DNA of 32,926 nucleotides from a bacterium (GTDB lineage: Bacteria; Krumholzibacteriota; Krumholzibacteriia; Krumholzibacteriales; WJIX01): NCBI GenBank assembly GCA_014730075.1, contig WJIX01000272.1:1-32926 (forward strand). Direction: 5' to 3'. The notes beneath the pieces were generated by a model. The model was not told the DNA's origin and ran no database searches. It saw only the letters and a list, made by a program, of their open reading frames with translations. This document shows, piece by piece, positions 2,248 to 30,748 of the stretch. A program made the translations under genes and the position numbers. Position 1 is the stretch's first letter. Each line of letters opens with the position of its first letter.

Positions 2248-3018
2248 CTAACTCATATGGCCTATCAGGCCGGCCAGAGCTGACCTGGCTGCCCTGCACC
2301 TGTCTATCACTCCCCGGTGACCTGATCCGTCGGAAGATATATTGGGTGTGTAATTCGTAAGACAGCTGATAACTGCCACTTCCATACCGAACTCCCCTGC
2401 TGCTTCCAGCTCCGGGTACACCGACATGGTTACCGCATCCGCTCCGATAACCCTACCCGCCCTTGCTTCAGCGGGGGTTTCGTAGCAGGGGCCGGAATTC
2501 CAGAGCAGCACACCGGGAAACAGATTCATCCCCGCCCTGGCGGCAGAGCGAACTACCAGGTCTCGAAAACCGGCCGAAATATAATTCCCCCTTCCAAAGC
2601 GGTAACCGCACTCCCGGCCGCCCTGCCAGGCGCGCCTTCTGAAGGGGAAGGATGCCACGGAAGCCGGAGCCAGCCAGCTTCCCAGTGGAATATCAGGCCG
2701 GAGGCATCCGGCCGCGTTAGTTATCAGGACTCTTCTGCACCCCAGCCGGGCTGCCGCCCTTACTGTCCCGCCGGCCCTGTAAAAACCAATCCCCTCGTAA
2801 AGGTGGGCTCTGCCCATGAACAGGATTATCCCGGAACCTTCCCCCCTCCCGAAGAGTGCAACAGTGCCAGGGTGGCCCTCCACTGTGGGAACCGAGAGAT
2901 CTTCCAACTCTTCATATCCTGCTATTCTCTCCAGTGGGAAGGATCCTCCTTCAAGGGAAAGGCCGGATCCCAGTATAACAGCTGTATCAGCTTTGATATC
3001 CCCTGCGCTCCCTATCAA
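2248..3018 (-). CDS. Purine nucleoside phosphorylase (PNP/MTAP family)
   Basis: VILGSGL near N-terminus, VEGHPG, GRAHLYEG, NAAGCL, GPCYETPAEAR, TNYTPN motifs. Confidence 0.88.
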   Translation of the reverse strand: MIGSAGDIKADTAVILGSGLSLEGGSFPLERIAGYEELEDLSVPTVEGHPGTVALFGRGEGSGIILFMGRAHLYEGIGFYRAGGTVRAAARLGCRRVLITNAAGCLRPDIPLGSWLAPASVASFPFRRRAWQGGRECGYRFGRGNYISAGFRDLVVRSAARAGMNLFPGVLLWNSGPCYETPAEARAGRVIGADAVTMSVYPELEAAGEFGMEVAVISCLTNYTPNISSDGSGHRGVIDRCRAARSALAGLIGHMS

Positions 3019-3027
3019 TACTTCACC

Positions 3028-3483
3028 TCAAATCAGGGAAAGCTCAAGAAGGAGTGCGTCCTCCCCATTCTCCTGATAGTACCCTTCTATTATGCCCCTT
3101 ATCCTGAATCCCTTCCCCACGTAGAAATCCCTGGCCTTTAAATTGCTCGCTCTAACCTCCAGGTAGAGACGGACGCATTCTCTCTCTCTGGACCGTCTTA
3201 TTATCTCATCCACCAGCTTTCCGGCTACCCCGCGCCTCCTGTACTCCGAAGAAACCGCTATATTGAGAATATGTGAATCTTCACCTTCAAACCAGACCAC
3301 CGAATATCCCGTCACCGCATTCCCACTGTGGGCTACCAGTACGGCTGCAATGCTTCTGAGCTGGAGCTGATTCATGAACATCCGCTCCGACCAGGGAAAC
3401 TCGAAACTGGAGGCTTCGATATCCAGAATATCCTGGATATCTCCGGGAACTGCATCCCGTACCTTTATCTCCATACTGGTCAC
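3028..3483 (-). CDS. rimI: Ribosomal protein S18-alanine N-acetyltransferase (GNAT)
   Basis: GNAT motif EYRRRGVAGKLVDEIIRRS, LEVRASNLKARDFYVGKGFRIRGI; next to tsaB. Confidence 0.88.
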   Translation of the reverse strand: MTSMEIKVRDAVPGDIQDILDIEASSFEFPWSERMFMNQLQLRSIAAVLVAHSGNAVTGYSVVWFEGEDSHILNIAVSSEYRRRGVAGKLVDEIIRRSRERECVRLYLEVRASNLKARDFYVGKGFRIRGIIEGYYQENGEDALLLELSLI

Positions 3484-4193
3484 CCTCTCTTATCCATCAG
3501 TTTAACTGAAGGCCTGGCATCAGGGGGCCTGATATAGAGAGGCTCCAGCCCCGCCAGCTGTTCGAAATCGACCGGCCTGCTTCCGTCAGTGAGAGCTGCC
3601 ATCAGTGACGCTGAAGGGTAGGTCCTGTTTATATCCGCGAATATGATACCCCGGCTACTGAATATTTCCCTGTAACGGCAGGCCCCGGTACCGCATGCAA
3701 TCACTTTTCTGCTGCCGCACCGGCTGGAAACAATACCACTTATCTCTGCCGGTTTGACCGCGCCCGGAGCCACGATCTCTTCCGGCATTCCTGAGCCGGT
3801 ACTGTACAGTGCGAAATATACCTCATTCCTTCTTGCATCTATAATTGAAGCTACCGGCAGCTGGCAGTATGGGAAAGCGGAAGCCAGAAGTTCCAGGCTG
3901 GAGACCGTGTACACCGGCTTCTGACGTACCGAAGCAAAAGCCTTGATGGTGGAGAGGCCGATCCTCAGGCCGGTAAAACTACCCGGTCCTATTACCACGG
4001 CAAAGCTCTCAATCTCGCTCAACTCAACCCCGGCCATCCGCAGGGAAGAATCCACCGCGGGAAGAAGGGTGGCAGAATGGGTATCGCTGGCGTCGAAGAA
4101 TACCCCGGACAGAAGCCCCGAATGATCCGAGACAGCTACGCTGCCCCTCAAGTGCGAACTGTCCAGTGAGATCTGCAGGGACCTATTCTTCAT
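3480..4193 (-). CDS. tsaB: tRNA threonylcarbamoyladenosine biosynthesis protein TsaB
   Basis: GPGSFTGLRIGLSTIKAFA, IDARRNEVYFALY; rimI-tsaB-tsaE cluster. Confidence 0.9.
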   Translation of the reverse strand: MKNRSLQISLDSSHLRGSVAVSDHSGLLSGVFFDASDTHSATLLPAVDSSLRMAGVELSEIESFAVVIGPGSFTGLRIGLSTIKAFASVRQKPVYTVSSLELLASAFPYCQLPVASIIDARRNEVYFALYSTGSGMPEEIVAPGAVKPAEISGIVSSRCGSRKVIACGTGACRYREIFSSRGIIFADINRTYPSASLMAALTDGSRPVDFEQLAGLEPLYIRPPDARPSVKLMDKRG

Positions 4194-4725: not shown

Positions 4726-6285
4726 TCATGCTTTTGGTTCCAGTGTTATGCAGGGAACGATCATCTCCTCCAGGGATATCCCCCCATGCTGGAAGGTGTT
4801 TCTGTACTGCCTCTCATACTTGTGGTAATTGGTTGGATATACGAAATAGTAGTTCGATTTAGCGAATATGTAATTCTTGGTGGGGCTCTCAGCCGGAAGC
4901 TTTATGCTCCTCGGATTCTCCACCCTGTAGGTGTACTTCCTGTCGCAGCTGATATTTTCACCGAATTTATACCGCAGATTGGTGGATGTCTCCCGGTTGG
5001 CCTTTACCATGGTGGCCTTTTTGCAGAGGATCGACCCGTGATCGGTAGTTACGATCACAGTCCCGCCCTGGAGACTGATTCTCTTCAGAATATCGTAGAG
5101 TGCCGAATGGATGAACCAGGAACGCATCAGGGAACGGAAGGCGCTCTCATCGGGAGCAATCTCCTGGAGAAGCCTGATATGGCTTCTGCCGTGGGAGAGC
5201 ATGTCCAGAAAATTAACCACTATCGCGATAAGGTCCAGGGACTTGTAGGAGCCTATCTCATCACTTATCCTGGCTGTGTCCTCATTACTGTATATCTTTA
5301 TATACTTTGATTTTATCTTATCGAACCCCTTGGCCCTGAGCTGTTCGTTCATCAATTCCATCTCGAAGCGGTTCTTGCCCGAACCGTCATCGTCAGCCCT
5401 CTCCAGCCAGTACTGCGGGTACTGCTGCTTTATTCCTATCGGGAAAAGCCCTGAGAATATGGCATTTCTGGAATAGGGAGTTGCCGAGGGAAGGATCGAA
5501 TAGATCAGGTCCCTGTCTATGGCGTAGTGGTCGGCCAGAAGATCCTCGATCATAAGCCACTGATCGTATCTCATGCAGTCTATAATCAGGAGATAAACCT
5601 GTTTGCCCTCAGATAGTGCCGGGAGAGCGAATCTGTCGAACACGTCCTTGGTCATTACCGGACGATTATCTGAGTTCATCCACTCAGAATAGTTTTCTTC
5701 CACGAAAGCGGAGAATTTCTCATTGCTTCGCTCCCTCAGGTCACTGTGAATCTGCTCCAGCCCCGTTTTACTCAGGCTGTCCAGCTCCAGGTCCCACCGG
5801 CAGAGGTTATGGTGAATCTCCTTCCACTGCTCGGTGGTTAGATCGGCCTCCACCATTTCATCCACTTTCCGGAATTCCTCCAGATACCCCCGGCTGAGGG
5901 TATCCTTCTGAATCCTGGAGGATTGCAGTATCTTCTTAGCCGCCAGATATGCCTGCAGGGGATTAATCGGCTTTATAAGGTAGTCGTCTATCTTCAGCCC
6001 GATCGCCTGGTCCATAATCCCTTCCTCTTCGTTCTTGGTTATCATGATAACCGGAAGGTTCATATTTATCGCCTTTATCTCCTGCAGGGTCTGTATTCCA
6101 TCCTTTCCCGGCATATTCTCATCCAGGAAGACCAGGTCGTAATTATTCCTTTTTATCTCCTCTACACCCTCCTCCCCGCTGGAAACTCCCTTTACCCCGT
6201 ACCCCTTCTCCTCCAGAAATATAATATGCGAACGCAGAAGTTCTATTTCATCGTCAACCCACAGAATAGAATTATTGATGTTCAA
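4726..6285 (-). CDS. porX: PorX-like response regulator with PglZ/alkaline-phosphatase-superfamily effector domain
   Basis: N-terminal receiver (ILWVDDEIELL...LVFLDENMPGKDGIQTL...PVIMITKNEE...YLIKPI) fused to PglZ-type domain (LLIIDCMRYDQWLMIEDLL, ILPSATPYSRNAIFSGLFP, VTTDHGS). Confidence 0.85.
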   Translation of the reverse strand: MNINNSILWVDDEIELLRSHIIFLEEKGYGVKGVSSGEEGVEEIKRNNYDLVFLDENMPGKDGIQTLQEIKAINMNLPVIMITKNEEEGIMDQAIGLKIDDYLIKPINPLQAYLAAKKILQSSRIQKDTLSRGYLEEFRKVDEMVEADLTTEQWKEIHHNLCRWDLELDSLSKTGLEQIHSDLRERSNEKFSAFVEENYSEWMNSDNRPVMTKDVFDRFALPALSEGKQVYLLIIDCMRYDQWLMIEDLLADHYAIDRDLIYSILPSATPYSRNAIFSGLFPIGIKQQYPQYWLERADDDGSGKNRFEMELMNEQLRAKGFDKIKSKYIKIYSNEDTARISDEIGSYKSLDLIAIVVNFLDMLSHGRSHIRLLQEIAPDESAFRSLMRSWFIHSALYDILKRISLQGGTVIVTTDHGSILCKKATMVKANRETSTNLRYKFGENISCDRKYTYRVENPRSIKLPAESPTKNYIFAKSNYYFVYPTNYHKYERQYRNTFQHGGISLEEMIVPCITLEPKA

Positions 6286-6298
6286 AACAGTGCTCCTT

Positions 6299-7546
6299 CT
6301 AATGAACGGGGAATTTCAGCAGAAATGTAGTCCCCCTGCCCAATTCCGAATCAGCCAGGGAAATGGATCCTTTATGAATCTCCTCCACGATTCTCTTGAC
6401 CAGTGCCAGGCCCAGCCCCCATCCTCTTCTCTTGGTGGTAATACCTGGAGAAAAAATCCTGTTACGAAGGGCCGGAGGGATCCCGCTTCCTGTATCGCTG
6501 ACCTGTATCTCGATACTCCTGTTCCTCTCATTCAACCTGCCGGTAATCTCGATCCTTCCCTCTCCCCCACTGATGGCATCCAAAGAATTCTTGATCAGGT
6601 TCTCGAATACCCAGCCGATCAGGTCCGCGCTGCACCGGATCTCCGGGAGTTCTTCAAGCTTAACCGTAATAATAGAATTAATGCTCAGGGCCGGCCTTCT
6701 GCGCTTGAAATACTCAACCGTCCGTAATATTATCTCTCCGATATCCTGATATTCCATCCTGGGCGCCGATCCTATCTTGCTGAACCTTGAGGATATTCTG
6801 CTCAATCTCTCCACATCCAGTTCAGCCTCCCGGACCGATGAATCTATCTTTTCTCTGGCTATCTGATCTTTTCTCAGCTCTCCCTTGATAATTTCAAGCC
6901 AACCCATGAGTGAAGATATGGGAGTTCCCAGCTGATGAGCGGTTTCCTTGGACATCCCCACCCAGATCGATCTCTGTTCGCTCTTCTTGAGGATCTGAAA
7001 ACCGATGAATCCGAACAGCGCGAATATCAGAAAGACACCCAGTTGTACATACGGAGCTATCTTTAGTTCCCTGGCCAGGCCGGAAAGTCCGTAATGAATC
7101 ATCAGTTTCTGGCCGTTGGTTCTTACCGGTATCGGTTTATTGATTGCGTCAAAGCTCCTGACCTTTTCCAGAACCTGCTCCAGGAGAGGATCGTCCGGGC
7201 TTTCAGGGTCAAAATCAAGAAGTCTCGAATATTCCGAGTCCTCCATCTGAGGGATCCCGATCTCGTTCCATATCATCGGCCTCCCCCCAGCGTCAGTAAT
7301 CACCAGCGGCAGAATCATCGCTTCACGGATCTCCCTGACAAACTGCCTGCTCCCCGAGTTTTCCACCCTGCTCAGGGCCAGAGCGGTAAAACGGGAAAAG
7401 AGGTTTGTGGTGTTCTCGGCCTGTTTTTTCATGCGGCTTATCAGGGTGTTATTGTAATAAAGCATGGAGACGGCCAGGATAATTCCTCCCACGATGAAAT
7501 AGACTCTGATCAGGAAGGGAAGATTTCTTGAAAGACGTATCTTCAT
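6299..7546 (-). CDS. Sensor histidine kinase, PorY-like
   Basis: ORF track start 7648 lies inside serS; ATG at 7546 (MKIRLSRNLPFLIRVYFIVGG) is preferred. Two TM segments, HisKA box GMSKETAHQLGTPISSLMGWLEIIK, N/G1/G2 boxes (ENLIKNSLDAI, VSDTGSGIP, GWGLGLALVKRI). Confidence 0.85.
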   Translation of the reverse strand: MKIRLSRNLPFLIRVYFIVGGIILAVSMLYYNNTLISRMKKQAENTTNLFSRFTALALSRVENSGSRQFVREIREAMILPLVITDAGGRPMIWNEIGIPQMEDSEYSRLLDFDPESPDDPLLEQVLEKVRSFDAINKPIPVRTNGQKLMIHYGLSGLARELKIAPYVQLGVFLIFALFGFIGFQILKKSEQRSIWVGMSKETAHQLGTPISSLMGWLEIIKGELRKDQIAREKIDSSVREAELDVERLSRISSRFSKIGSAPRMEYQDIGEIILRTVEYFKRRRPALSINSIITVKLEELPEIRCSADLIGWVFENLIKNSLDAISGGEGRIEITGRLNERNRSIEIQVSDTGSGIPPALRNRIFSPGITTKRRGWGLGLALVKRIVEEIHKGSISLADSELGRGTTFLLKFPVH

Positions 7547-7547
7547 A

Positions 7548-8819
7548 TTACCCCCCCAGGAATTCTCTGCCGCCCATATAACCGGCCAGGGGGGGAGGTA
7601 CCCTGACCTTTCCCGTTGGTGTCTGAAAAAGCTCCAGAATGGTCGCAATTATTCTGGGAAGCGCGAGGCCTGATCCATTCAGGGTATGTACGAACCGGGA
7701 GGAACCGTCCTTATCTTCCCGGTATTTGATCCTTGCCCTTCTGGCCTGAAAATCCTCGAAGTTACTGCATGAGGAAACCTCAAGCCACTTGCCGGTAGCG
7801 GGGGCGTATGTTTCTATATCATAGCACTTTGCGGCCGAGAAACTTAGGTCCCCGGTGCAGAGTTCAATCACCCGGTAAGGGATATCCAGCTGCTCCAGTA
7901 TATAAAGGGCATCCTGCAGGAGAAGCTCCAGCTGCTGGTATGACTCCTCCGGCCGGACCACTCTTACCATCTCAACCTTGTCAAACTGATGAACCCGGAT
8001 CAGGCCCCTGGTATCCTTGCCATAGCTCCCCGCCTCCCTCCTGAAACAGGGGCTGTAGGCAACCATCCTGACCGGGAGATCACTGCCTGAAACTGTGCTC
8101 TCCCGGAGAAGATTGGTAACCGGAACTTCAGCGGTGGGAATGCAGAACAGGTCATCCCTGCCGCAGTGGTACATGTCATCAGCCATCTTGGGAAGCTGTC
8201 CGGTGCCGATCATCGAATCCCTGCTTACCAGGTATGGTACCGCCACCTCTTCATGCCCCCGGCTCCTGTGGGTATCCAGCATGTAATTTACCAGGGCCCT
8301 GGATAGAAGGGCACCGTCACCGCGCAGAACAACAAATCCGCTCCCGCTTACCGCGGCACCCGCTTCCAGGTCGAGCACCCCCAGTTTCTCTCCTATTTCC
8401 CAGTGAGGAAGTATGGGAAGGTCGTTTCTGAACGGATCTCCCCATTCCCTGACCACCGGGTTATCCTTATCGCAGGTTCCAGGGGGCGCGCTCTGGTGGG
8501 GTATATTAGGGATGGTCAGCTCGAGGGCAATCAGTTCTTCCTCAATATCCTTCAACTGATCCTCATACTCTTTTATGGTGGATGAGGTCTCCTTCATCTC
8601 CTCTATAAGTTCCGAAGCATCCTTCCCTTCCCGCATCAGCTGTGATATCTCCCTGGAAGCAACATTCTTGCGGTGCTTGAGCGATTCCACTTCCTGCAGA
8701 AGCTCCCGGCGCCGGCTGTCCACCTCCAGAAAATGGTCCAGGTCAAAATCGCTTCCCTTGTTCCTGATCCCCTCCCTTACCTTTTCGGGGTCATTCCTGA
8801 TCAGTTTCCTGTCAAGCAT
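7548..8819 (-). CDS. serS: Seryl-tRNA synthetase
   Basis: N-terminal coiled coil MLDRKLIRNDPEKVREGIRNKG; class II motifs SPCFRREAGSYGKDTRGLIRVHQFDKVEM; C-terminal LNGSGLALPRIIATILE. Confidence 0.97.
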   Translation of the reverse strand: MLDRKLIRNDPEKVREGIRNKGSDFDLDHFLEVDSRRRELLQEVESLKHRKNVASREISQLMREGKDASELIEEMKETSSTIKEYEDQLKDIEEELIALELTIPNIPHQSAPPGTCDKDNPVVREWGDPFRNDLPILPHWEIGEKLGVLDLEAGAAVSGSGFVVLRGDGALLSRALVNYMLDTHRSRGHEEVAVPYLVSRDSMIGTGQLPKMADDMYHCGRDDLFCIPTAEVPVTNLLRESTVSGSDLPVRMVAYSPCFRREAGSYGKDTRGLIRVHQFDKVEMVRVVRPEESYQQLELLLQDALYILEQLDIPYRVIELCTGDLSFSAAKCYDIETYAPATGKWLEVSSCSNFEDFQARRARIKYREDKDGSSRFVHTLNGSGLALPRIIATILELFQTPTGKVRVPPPLAGYMGGREFLGG

Positions 8820-8852: not shown

Positions 8853-9662
8853 TTAACTCCCGGCCCCGGTTCCGGCGGAAGAGATCTGCTCTACCAGCTG
8901 CCTCACTATATTATTTCCATCCTCCGTATTTCCCGAAACGGTGCGCTCTATCCTGTCTGAGCCATCAGGGCTGACCACTACCGCGCTGAAATCAAGGGCA
9001 AACCCCGAGATGCTGCAGAGCGCTCCCACGCACCTGTCCCCTCGGGAGATCTCCCCGGCGAATTCCCTCTCCAGGGAGACAGCCAGGTAAGCATTATGAT
9101 TATTCAGTTTAGCGGCCAGTTCGCCGGTCCTACTGTCAACCGACCTGGTGACCATGGCCAGTCCGCCCTGCCCTGGAGGAGGCATGCAAACCGAAGAGTT
9201 GAAAACCTCAACCACCTTGCCCTGCTGGTTAAGGGTCTCCACTACAAAGGCGGGCAATACGAATCCCCCGCACTTCTCTTCCAGCATCCTCTGGTAACAT
9301 AGCGAGAAATCCCTGTCGCAATCGACATAACTGAAGGCGGGATGGTGGTAGATCAGCTGGCCCTTGATCACCGGGCTGAACACCTCAATCGGCATCTCCC
9401 CGGGGTAATCCTCGAAGATTGAAGCTGATTCGGATATAAAGACGTTGAAGGGGTTTGCCCGGTCAAGGATCGCCGATATCCTGAAATCCCGGCTGAGCGG
9501 AAGGGGTACAAGAGAGGCGTCGCAGATCAGGATATCCAGGTCCTCGGACTCCAGCATATCGAAATATAAATTCAGGCCGGAACCGTTATCTCCCCATCCC
9601 TTTTCATTCTTAATCTCCTCATAGGTCACGCCGGGGGTAACCTCTCTGATTGAAGAGACCAC
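8853..9662 (-). CDS. Hydroxymethylbilane synthase (HemC)-fold homolog lacking catalytic residues; coding frame extends upstream to about 9725
   Basis: PPPGQGGLAMVTRSVDSRTGELAAKLNNHNAYLAVSLEREF matches the HemC P..GQG....R..DSRT.EL...LN.H....V..ER pattern; N-terminal part DILICDASLVPLPL..FRISAILDRANPFNVFIS matches DIAVHSMKDVP...REDPRDAFVS. Confidence 0.75.
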   Translation of the reverse strand: MVSSIREVTPGVTYEEIKNEKGWGDNGSGLNLYFDMLESEDLDILICDASLVPLPLSRDFRISAILDRANPFNVFISESASIFEDYPGEMPIEVFSPVIKGQLIYHHPAFSYVDCDRDFSLCYQRMLEEKCGGFVLPAFVVETLNQQGKVVEVFNSSVCMPPPGQGGLAMVTRSVDSRTGELAAKLNNHNAYLAVSLEREFAGEISRGDRCVGALCSISGFALDFSAVVVSPDGSDRIERTVSGNTEDGNNIVRQLVEQISSAGTGAGS

Positions 9663-9816
9663 TTCGTCGCCGGCTTCTCTTACCGCCGAATCCCCGAACG
9701 CTATTCTGTATACATCTGCAACTATCTCAGATCAACTCCTTACAAACTGAATAACAACAATTACATTGTCAAGCTACCACAGATAATATCAAAAGGCAAA
9801 GACAAACAGAACGGTA

Positions 9817-10923
9817 TCAACTGCTATTTCCGGCAAAAGAATTTCTCGACTTTCTGCAGTCGGCGATGATCCTGTTGATCCTCTCTCCGGAGACTTTGGA
9901 CCTGTTCATGAGCGAGAATGAAACGAAGAGTAGCACCAGCTGTAGGATCGAAGCGGTAATAAGCGCTGTCAGACTGCCGGCCATGGTCAGGATCCCCAGA
10001 ATGCCGAACAGCAGGGAAAGAGACCAGAGAATGAAATCAACCTTTATCATCGAACCGAATCTGAAGAGCAGGACATAGTGCAGATGCTTCATATCCGCCT
10101 CGAATACCGGGTGGCCGGCAACGGCCCGGCGCAGGAAGGCAAGTACCGCGTCGGTAAGTGGTATGCTCAGCAGGAAAATGCTGCCTGCCATCCTGTAGAT
10201 AACATCCTCGGCTCCTATTACCAGGAAGATGCAGATAAGCCCGAATATGAGGCCGAAGAAGAGCGATCCGGAATCACCCATGAATATCATAGCCGGAGGG
10301 AAATTATATCTGAGAAAGGCAACCGATGCTCCCAGCACCACCACGGAGGTATAGAGTACCAGTGGAATGTCGAATATATATCCTGCCACGCAGAGCTCCG
10401 CTGCGGCAATTACTGCGATGCCGGTGGCCAGTCCATCTATCCCGTCTATCAGGTTGAAAGAACTGGTAACGGCCAGTATCCAGAGTGTTACCAGAATAAA
10501 TGCCGCCACCACGTATTGAACAGTAAGTGCAGAGCCGAAGAATCTGGCCAGAAGAAAGATTCCCCCCAGAGAGACAATTACCGAGGCCGCTATCTGGAGA
10601 AATAACTTGTACTTATAATGAAGGGACCTGAGGTCGTCAATTACACCCAGTACGAATATAATGAATCCGCTTACTATCAGGATCGGAAAGAAAACCCGGG
10701 GCAGAATCTGTTCCTCTACCAGAAACAGGAAGACGGGAACCAGCCCCACCAGAATGGCCGCTACGATTGCCACTCCACCGATATGGGCTATATCTCCATT
10801 GGCCCTGTCGTTCGGTTTCTCACATATTTTCCACCTGACAGCGATATTCCTGATCAGGGGGGTGATTACAAAACAGACCAGAAATGAGAGGGAGAAAGGA
10901 ATGATTATATCTGAATAAGACAA
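9817..10923 (-). CDS. Undecaprenyl-phosphate GlcNAc-1-phosphate transferase-like (WecA/TagO/Rfe family)
   Basis: Multi-TM; HIGGVAI, VIDDLRSL, SFNLIDGIDGLATG, FMGDSGSLFFG, HLHY motifs. Confidence 0.88.
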   Translation of the reverse strand: MSYSDIIIPFSLSFLVCFVITPLIRNIAVRWKICEKPNDRANGDIAHIGGVAIVAAILVGLVPVFLFLVEEQILPRVFFPILIVSGFIIFVLGVIDDLRSLHYKYKLFLQIAASVIVSLGGIFLLARFFGSALTVQYVVAAFILVTLWILAVTSSFNLIDGIDGLATGIAVIAAAELCVAGYIFDIPLVLYTSVVVLGASVAFLRYNFPPAMIFMGDSGSLFFGLIFGLICIFLVIGAEDVIYRMAGSIFLLSIPLTDAVLAFLRRAVAGHPVFEADMKHLHYVLLFRFGSMIKVDFILWSLSLLFGILGILTMAGSLTALITASILQLVLLFVSFSLMNRSKVSGERINRIIADCRKSRNSFAGNSS

Positions 10924-10998
10924 GATGCCCCTTCCAAAAATCGATTCGGCTGTTCACCCAAGACCGGCAGTATTATTACTGCTGATGAGACTGCCACC

Positions 10999-12093
10999 CT
11001 ACTCATCATCGAATGCTTCCTCTATTATATCCGCAATACGTACCGCTGTACGGCCATCCCACAGCGGCGGAATGTCATAATCGCCCACTTCCGCTTCCAG
11101 GACTTCCATCGCTGCCGGGTAAAGGTCTTCCGCCCTTGTCCCCACCAGCGTATTGGTGCCCATCTGAACCGTTATGGGACGTTCGGTATTGTCCCTGACC
11201 GTCAGACAGGGAACTCCCAGAACGGTGGTTTCCTCCTGAATCCCTCCTGAATCAGTGATCACCAGGCGGGCATTTTTCATTCCCTTGAGGAAGTCAAGAT
11301 ACCCCACCGGCTGGATAATCCTGAAATCTGAATTCCCGTCATCTTTGATCCCGGCCTTCTCCATGACCTTTCTGGTCCTTGGGTGCATCGGAAAAACTAC
11401 AGGGTGTGTTTCAGCCAGCCTGGCCAGGACTTCGAAGAGGGCGCGGAATTGATCGGGATCATCCACATTGGAGGGCCTGTGGAGAGTTACCAGTATGTAA
11501 TCATTGCCGCTCAGCCCCAGATCCTCCAGGATTGAGGATTCCTCCGATTTCTCAAGATAAGATTTCAGGGAGTCGATCATGATATTGCCCACGAAGAATA
11601 TCCTCTCAGTCCCAACCCCCTCCCTTTTCAGGTTGTACTCCGCTTCTGGAGAGGTAGTGAAACAGAAGTCCGAGAGTATGTCGGTTACCATTCTGTTTAT
11701 CTCCTCCGGCATCCTCTTGTCAAAACTCCTCAGCCCCGCCTCCACGTGGGCCACCGGGATATGCTGCTTGGCCCCCACCAGCGAGCAGGCCAGGGTTGAA
11801 TTAACATCCCCTACTACTATTATCAGGTCCGGCTGCTCTTTCTTCACCACCCTTTCAAACTCCACCATGACCCCGGCAGTCTGGACAGCGTGTGTCCCAG
11901 AACCTATTCCCAGGTAGATATCGGGCCTGGGCAGGTTAAGGTCGTCAAAGAATATTCTGGACATATTTTGATCATAATGCTGGCCGGTATGAACCAGGAA
12001 TGCTTCGATACCGTCCCTGGTGCCGAACTCGCGCATCAGGGGGGCAGCCTTCATGAAATTAGGCCTGGCCCCCACCACAACTGCTGCTTTCAT
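10999..12093 (-). CDS. wecB: UDP-N-acetylglucosamine 2-epimerase (non-hydrolyzing)
   Basis: GARPNFMKAAPL, HTGQHYDQNMS, HVEAGLRSFDKRMPEEINR, LVTLHRPSNVD, ITDSGGIQEE, RDNTERP. Confidence 0.93.
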   Translation of the reverse strand: MKAAVVVGARPNFMKAAPLMREFGTRDGIEAFLVHTGQHYDQNMSRIFFDDLNLPRPDIYLGIGSGTHAVQTAGVMVEFERVVKKEQPDLIIVVGDVNSTLACSLVGAKQHIPVAHVEAGLRSFDKRMPEEINRMVTDILSDFCFTTSPEAEYNLKREGVGTERIFFVGNIMIDSLKSYLEKSEESSILEDLGLSGNDYILVTLHRPSNVDDPDQFRALFEVLARLAETHPVVFPMHPRTRKVMEKAGIKDDGNSDFRIIQPVGYLDFLKGMKNARLVITDSGGIQEETTVLGVPCLTVRDNTERPITVQMGTNTLVGTRAEDLYPAAMEVLEAEVGDYDIPPLWDGRTAVRIADIIEEAFDDE

Positions 12094-29218: not shown

Positions 29219-30748
29219 TTAATCCTCTATTCTTACCTCATTGAGGTAGAATTCATTCACGGGGGAGAAATCGAGCCCCGTTACATTCTTTCCATAGGCA
29301 CCCAGTCTGTGAGGATGGCTGATCAGAATCCAGGGATACTCCTCCTGCAGGACCTTTTCCGCCTGGTCCAGCAGGGACCATATCCTCCTGATTGATACCG
29401 TTTCCCTGGCATCAATTATCAGTGATTCGAAACGTTCCGGTTTCCACCATCTATTGAATTCGTCCTCTGTATTTCCGATCCCGAAAACACATGAATAAAA
29501 ATCGTTGGGGTCTTCGGTGTCCAGGAGCCAGCCGGTAATAAGAAAATCATAATCTACCCTCGGATTCCAGTAATCATTTATGTAGCTCTCCCATGAATCC
29601 GGCCTGACATATTCAACCTTCAGCCCCGCTTCCTCCAGGTAGCCTTTGATCATCCCGGCCAGTTTTTCAGGTTCCGGACAGTAAGGCCTGGGAAATGGGA
29701 GCCCCACCAGCTTGAAACTCCGCTCGCTAACCTGGTATCGGCTGAAAACCATTCTTGCCCTCTCCGGATTGTATGGAACCTCCATCTGCTCTCTCAAGCT
29801 GGATATTGCCGGCGGCAGATAGGTCCTGCATTCCACGGCCTGCCCGTAGAATATATTCCTGATTATCTCTCGACGGTCGACTGCAAGGTTAAGAGCCCGC
29901 CTGAATTCAGCGTTGTCCAGGGGCGGCCTGAACGGGTTGATCAGAATATACAGGGTATTGCTCCCCTTGATAATATCCAGGTCAAGGCCACTGTCGGAAA
30001 TAACCTCATCCGCAAGGGATGGGGGAACCGAATAGAGAACATCCAGCCTTCCTTCCCGCATCAGTGCCACTGCCTCCCCGGGCCCGGAGAGGCAGTGGAA
30101 GGTGGCGCCGTCAAGGGCAGGCTTTCTGCCCCAGTAACCGCGATAGGCGGCGATATGGATCTTATCGCCCCCGTCCCATTCCTGCAGGGTAAACGGTCCG
30201 GTCCCGAGAATAGAGCCGTCCTCACCGGTCTTGGCGGGGAAATTTTTGAGATTGGTAAGCACCTTCAAAAGGTTGGCAGTCCTGACCGGCATGGTGAACC
30301 TTACCTTCATCCTGCTCTCCACTGATGGAACACCGGAGAAATATTTATTCTTTCGTATGGAGTCTACTATATCAAAGGCCGTCAGGGGAGAACCGTCATG
30401 GAAGGTAATCCCTTCCTTTACCTGGAATATCCAGACCTTCCCCCCATCCCGTATCTCCCAGTCCCGGACCAGGTTGGGCTCCACGCTGAAACTGTCAGGG
30501 CTGAACCTGACCAGCCCCTCGAATACATTGTTCTTAAGTATGGCAGTCCCGATGGCATCATTCAATTCGGAAGGATAGAGACATGATGGTTTGCCCCTCA
30601 CCGCAACCTCCAGCCAGTTCTCTTCCGCTCCCGCCGCGGATATCAGCAGGAGAAGCGAGACCGCGGTAACCGCAAAAAGCTGGCATTTTACGGCTTTTTC
30701 CCTTACCATTGACAGTCTAACCAACCTGATTCCTTTTCCTCCTGCCAT
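29219..30748 (-). CDS. ABC transporter substrate-binding protein, family 5 (peptide/nickel type)
   Basis: Signal peptide; VFEGLVRFSPDSFSVEPNLVRDWEIRDGGKVWIFQVKEGITFHDGSPLTAFDIVDSI; NPFRPPLDNAEFRRALNLAVDRREI. Confidence 0.88.
   Translation of the reverse strand: MAGGKGIRLVRLSMVREKAVKCQLFAVTAVSLLLLISAAGAEENWLEVAVRGKPSCLYPSELNDAIGTAILKNNVFEGLVRFSPDSFSVEPNLVRDWEIRDGGKVWIFQVKEGITFHDGSPLTAFDIVDSIRKNKYFSGVPSVESRMKVRFTMPVRTANLLKVLTNLKNFPAKTGEDGSILGTGPFTLQEWDGGDKIHIAAYRGYWGRKPALDGATFHCLSGPGEAVALMREGRLDVLYSVPPSLADEVISDSGLDLDIIKGSNTLYILINPFRPPLDNAEFRRALNLAVDRREIIRNIFYGQAVECRTYLPPAISSLREQMEVPYNPERARMVFSRYQVSERSFKLVGLPFPRPYCPEPEKLAGMIKGYLEEAGLKVEYVRPDSWESYINDYWNPRVDYDFLITGWLLDTEDPNDFYSCVFGIGNTEDEFNRWWKPERFESLIIDARETVSIRRIWSLLDQAEKVLQEEYPWILISHPHRLGAYGKNVTGLDFSPVNEFYLNEVRIED

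Follow-up and report, generated by a model that had tools for sequence, protein, structure and literature searches.

Hydroxymethylbilane synthase (HMBS, also known as porphobilinogen deaminase or HemC) is a textbook enzyme that makes its own, unique cofactor. HMBSs of known structure (e.g., PDB ID: 1ah5, 2ypn) display a three-domain fold and are detected by the Pfam profiles PF01379 and PF03900 and by the NCBIfam hemC equivalog (TIGR00212). They hold the dipyrromethane cofactor through a cysteine, and a catalytic aspartate and a network of arginines complete the active site. In the E. coli enzyme, the R131L, R132L, D84A, and D84N mutants are inactive, D84E is reduced in activity, and R11H, R149H, R155H, and R176H are damaging (PMC3945110). 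A second system of relevance is the PorX/PorY two-component system of Bacteroidota, in which a membrane kinase is associated with a regulator combining a receiver and a PglZ domain. In the locus described here, a similar pair is found downstream of a HemC-like gene, and the resemblance concerns these neighbours and not the HemC-like protein itself. No report of a HemC-like protein together with PorX was found in the titles and abstracts of the literature searched.

The window, i.e., the whole stretch of 32,926 nucleotides analysed, belongs to a member of the Krumholzibacteriota and harbors a HemC-like open frame (Table 1). The homology to HMBS proposed in the earlier note is borne out by profile searches: PF01379 matches at 38.1 bits (cut-off 22.1), PF03900 weakly and below its cut-off (12.8 vs 26 bits), and TIGR00212 at 66.7 bits, below the equivalog cut-off of 164. 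The AlphaFold2 model, built from 15 sequences, is confident (mean pLDDT 88.7, pTM 0.87), and its best 32 PDB matches by Foldseek are all HMBS chains (TM 0.80-0.87, normalised by query length), the top one being E. coli HMBS (PDB ID: 1ypn) with a TM of 0.85 over the full length. Type II periplasmic-binding-protein (PBP) domains, such as LysR effector domains and ABC solute-binding proteins, form a second tier far behind (TM of only 0.39-0.48 by query length); unlike them, the window protein possesses the third HMBS domain, and its sequence matches HMBS only. The structural residues R101, P194, Q198-G199, and E231 of HMBS are also shared, and the hydropathy profile reveals no clear membrane segment. 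The resemblance to HMBS, together with the altered active site described below, is thus real and well beyond chance.

Table 1. Features of the HemC-like locus (positions in the window)
Feature	Position	Strand	Basis or remark
HemC-like (pseudo-HMBS) open frame	8853..9734	-	stop to stop, with TGA at 9732-9734; codons 8856-9731; Pfam, NCBIfam, AlphaFold2, Foldseek
N-terminal stretch with strand 1 (DVYRIAFG), ahead of GTG 9662	9663..9731	-	model strand E7-12; matches strand 1 of relatives in the alignment
AGGAG, candidate ribosome-binding site located 10 nt ahead of an in-frame ATA (9725-9723)	9736..9740	-	sequence; putative start codon
CDASLV(P), site of HSMKDV(P); Lys83 to S, Asp84 to L	9508..9525	-	alignment
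VVEVFNSSVCMPPPGQG, segment with the highest conservation in the order's family (EVFTSSICMPxAGQG); variable in canonical HemC	9165..9215	-	alignment
RGDRC in the cofactor loop, where HemC has GGC; Asp at the Cys242 position	9022..9036	-	alignment
WecB-type UDP-GlcNAc 2-epimerase	10999..12093	-	
WecA/TagO-type polyprenyl-phosphate glycosyl-1-phosphate transferase (PF00953)	9817..10923	-	conserved upstream neighbour
serS	7548..8819	-	conserved downstream neighbour
Membrane histidine kinase (HisKA/HATPase_c)	6299..7648	-	
PorX-type response regulator (receiver + PglZ domain)	4726..6285	-	

Alignment to E. coli HemC confirms that the hallmark catalytic and cofactor-binding positions are substituted. 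The window protein carries Asp at S13, S81, R149, N151, and C242, Ser at K83, Leu at D84, Val at T127 and R131, Ile at R132, Cys at R155, and Thr at R176, R11 falling in a gap. None of the six arginines of the active-site network (Arg11, 131, 132, 149, 155, and 176) is therefore retained, and this network is variable across the family of relatives. Neither Asp84 nor Cys242 is restored in the window copy by profile or multiple alignment. The RGDRC segment is indeed an altered cofactor loop, as claimed in the earlier note; its cysteine is not the cofactor Cys, since in the alignment it comes two positions after C242, and it is found in no relative within the order.

These relatives form a large family. 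HemC-like genes are present in 16 of the 25 genomes of the window's order, the 15 other genomes concerned carrying one equally divergent copy each, and copies lacking the cofactor Cys ("Cys-less") occur in Krumholzibacteriota, in Eisenbacteria, and in a third small phylum (family code f72). They were found with an alignment as query; a single-sequence scan of the genome contigs gave none. Cys242 is found in none of the 63 family copies vs 43/43 canonical HemCs, and retention is also low for N151 (2/63), G173 (3/63), R155 (14/63), and R149 (15/63). Position 84, a Leu in the window, is Asp or Glu in 52/63. As the anchoring Cys is absent, such proteins should, judging from the alignments, be unable to carry the dipyrromethane cofactor and hence to polymerise porphobilinogen.

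The copies fall into two sharp classes, canonical HemCs with all motifs intact and Cys-less proteins. Both are found together in several genomes (f8, Eisenbacteria G080, and f72), those of f8 and Eisenbacteria harboring their additional intact HemC elsewhere. The f3 genomes (L093, L094) harbor a canonical HemC alone, with no Cys-less copy found; f3 is the only such family sampled in the phylum. In a tree of 107 rows (63 Cys-less copies, 43 canonical HemCs, and L195), the Cys-less copies occupy one side of a branch separating them from canonical HemC (SH-aLRT 95). Since the classes were assigned partly on Cys242, independent support comes from the tree and from gene order, and since branches are long, a single origin is likely but falls short of proof. 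L195 (positions 2845-3750, genome G426) was considered as a family member and rejected: it falls on the canonical side of the tree and represents a separate Cys loss. This HemC-like protein (D84 to Y, R149 to E, C242 to D) is encoded next to genes for UbiD and hydrolases, and its genome contains a second HemC match.

Seven close pairs of relatives from outside the window's genus, all with unsaturated dS, display dN/dS values of about 0.07-0.25. The Cys-less relatives thus evolve under purifying selection and are a pseudoenzyme family, not pseudogenes. This Cys-less branch, spread over three phyla with a conserved gene order and missed in the earlier note, is a deep pseudo-HMBS clade of which literature searches returned no description. 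Three of its members nevertheless exceed the 164-bit threshold of the NCBI hemC equivalog, namely L087 (210 bits), L138 (196 bits), and L027 (164.6 bits).

No match to the HemA, HemB, or HemD profiles (PF05201, PF00490, and PF02602) is found in any of the 25 genomes of the window's order, 14 of which reach 90% completeness or more with no more than 5% contamination; these profiles do find matches in other families of the phylum. Hence, an HMBS in this order would lack a substrate of the cell's own making. Four f4 genomes also lack HemA, HemB, and HemD and retain the Cys-less gene. The window protein is almost certainly not an HMBS, and the suggestion that it has no deaminase activity appears well founded on the lost residues and the missing pathway.

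The genes surrounding the Cys-less gene are largely conserved. A WecA-type transferase gene is found upstream in the window's order, f5, f7/f8, f72, and five Eisenbacteria, and serS downstream in the window's order, f4, f7/f8, and 20/20 Eisenbacteria copies; none of 10 canonical Eisenbacteria HemCs adjoins serS. The histidine kinase-PorX pair follows serS in the order, f4, f7/f8, and Eisenbacteria, where the contig reaches that far. The downstream neighbours named in the earlier note (serS, the kinase, and porX) are therefore present and conserved, and the WecA-type gene upstream had been overlooked. Departures from this organisation also exist. In f72, the kinase of the kinase-PorX pair comes directly after the Cys-less gene, with no serS between. 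In f6, the Cys-less gene mostly follows a UDP-sugar dehydrogenase, with a DegT aminotransferase in the two tested, and some Eisenbacteria possess rpsP/ffh or ABC transporter genes upstream. No neighbour is universal. As the copies of f5, f6, and f72 are found at other loci or have no serS beside them, SerS was rejected as the sole functional partner, and the sugar-lipid genes upstream and kinase-PorX downstream are the more telling neighbours.

Other features of these loci deserve mention. In most other genomes of the order, a gene for a Wzx-like flippase (about 505 residues) separates those of WecB and WecA; it is missing in the window (9820-12093) and in sister genus g2. An SBP_bac_5 extracellular solute-binding protein is encoded at 29222-30748 (-), at the end of the window, where large surface/sensor genes lie nearby. 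In genome G331 (L193:1746-3791), a WecA-type transferase and a HemC-like domain share one open frame of 682 residues. This frame was rejected as proof of a WecA partnership, since the HemC-like part still has, like its relatives, a TTG start and an RBS-like GGAG, and since the linker approximates the length of the relatives' spacer; it is treated as a possible read-through or sequence slip.

In the order's family, conservation is no longer centred on the cleft. The 28 cleft positions of canonical HemC have an entropy of 0.46 vs 1.97 for the background, and in the window's order these values are 1.64 and 1.65 (P 0.46), i.e., no excess conservation; nor is the cleft better conserved than background in the Eisenbacteria Cys-less copies (P 0.30). 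Positions 181-192 (DRVVEVFTSSIC), conversely, have an entropy of 0.65 in the order vs 2.55 in canonical HemC. Over all 63 copies, E175 (62), Q180 (53), E185 (63), and F187 (53) are conserved, E185 being also frequent in canonical HemC (27/43). The simplest reading of this shift would be a new interaction surface on domain 2.

Purifying selection in the relatives and the lack of HemA, HemB, and HemD in the order favour a role other than that of a deaminase, as the earlier note had suggested. The reading preferred here, held at slightly better than even confidence, is that of a catalytically dead HMBS paralogue that now serves an envelope-polysaccharide/PorX locus as an accessory or regulatory protein in the cytosol. 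As a member of an ancient Cys-less family devoid of cofactor anchor and presumably of porphobilinogen polymerisation, it retains the three domains of the HMBS fold, of which the first two are similar to type II PBPs, and would act as a soluble accessory or regulator of its own locus. The new domain 2 face (E. coli residues 175-192, with E175, Q180, E185, and F187) would contact a partner, most likely the upstream WecA-type transferase or the downstream kinase-PorX pair, and the protein might thereby couple lipid-linked sugar synthesis to kinase-PorX signalling. More tentatively, the paralogue may have lost its cofactor before several phyla split, becoming a ligand- or partner-gated regulator that ties lipid-linked sugar synthesis (WecA) to kinase-PorX signalling and is kept in cells without their own heme synthesis. 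Counting against an accessory role are the lack of a universal neighbour, a cleft modestly better conserved than background in f5, f6, and f72, and the loss of the gene in genomes in which its neighbours stay.

Such losses bear on a different explanation, namely that the family survives in the window only as a decaying or dispensable remnant. WecA lies directly before serS in G022, G023, G024, and G010, with no trace of a HemC-like gene, and these are true losses; in sister genus g2, one genome of which is 97% complete and in two contigs, WecA adjoins serS with nothing recognisable between. Four other genomes without a copy (G006, G012, G016, and G020) have serS cut by or at a contig end and are not counted as losses, and no call is made for G021, in which serS itself was not found. 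Some lineages (g2 and G010) can thus do without the gene, and the window's lineage may be on the path to losing it. Furthermore, no end branch of the tree is longer than that of the window copy (1.81), which misses 11 of 44 near-invariant columns, vs 1-8 in other members. In addition, no ordinary start codon precedes strand 1: the earliest conventional start (GTG, 9662) falls inside helix 1, so that strand 1 requires either an unusual start (the ATA of Table 1) or a sequence error upstream. Against decay, no internal stop or frameshift is seen in the frame, its base composition by codon position is coding-like, all family-invariant residues are kept, and the fold is confident. A remnant therefore seems unlikely, and decay, which the earlier note had named as undermining a pseudo-enzyme, does not account for a conserved family of relatives under purifying selection.

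The modest cleft conservation in f5, f6, and f72 makes a ligand or new chemistry possible there, and the protein could be an enzyme acting in the same cleft on a nucleotide sugar or another product of the adjacent sugar genes. The sugar-nucleotide operon setting and the Asp or Glu prevailing at position 84 would fit such an activity. It is, however, rather improbable given the relaxed cleft in the window's order, the Leu at position 84 in the window, and a cleft in which no new invariant set of catalytic-looking residues appears. Slightly less probable again is a non-catalytic sensor that binds an external tetrapyrrole or heme and reports to kinase-PorX. This would preserve the ancestral ligand class, and several families keep one or both cofactor-binding arginines; yet Arg131 and Arg132 are mostly lost, conservation has left the cleft, and the cleft is relaxed in an order devoid of HemA, HemB, and HemD. 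Finally, that the protein is still the HMBS of the cell might be suggested by the absence of any other PF01379 match from its genome (the order has one per genome) and by the name automatic pipelines would give to some relatives. This reading can be set aside, since the cofactor Cys, the catalytic Asp, and the arginines are gone, the pathway enzymes are missing, and the R131L, R132L, D84A, and D84N mutants of the E. coli enzyme are inactive.

The accessory or regulatory protein preferred here thus differs from HMBS by its newly conserved second-domain segment, its other gene neighbours, and its occurrence without a heme pathway. Cys-less proteins are labelled "hydroxymethylbilane synthase" by Pfam and, for some of them, by the NCBI equivalog cut-off, which places a false heme-pathway gene in such genomes. 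For uncultured phyla, the family provides a delimited protein surface open to testing and, with WecA and kinase-PorX, a strong lead from the gene neighbourhood. The maintenance of an old and widespread Cys-less HMBS branch in organisms devoid of the heme pathway suggests that the HMBS fold has been reused for another function.
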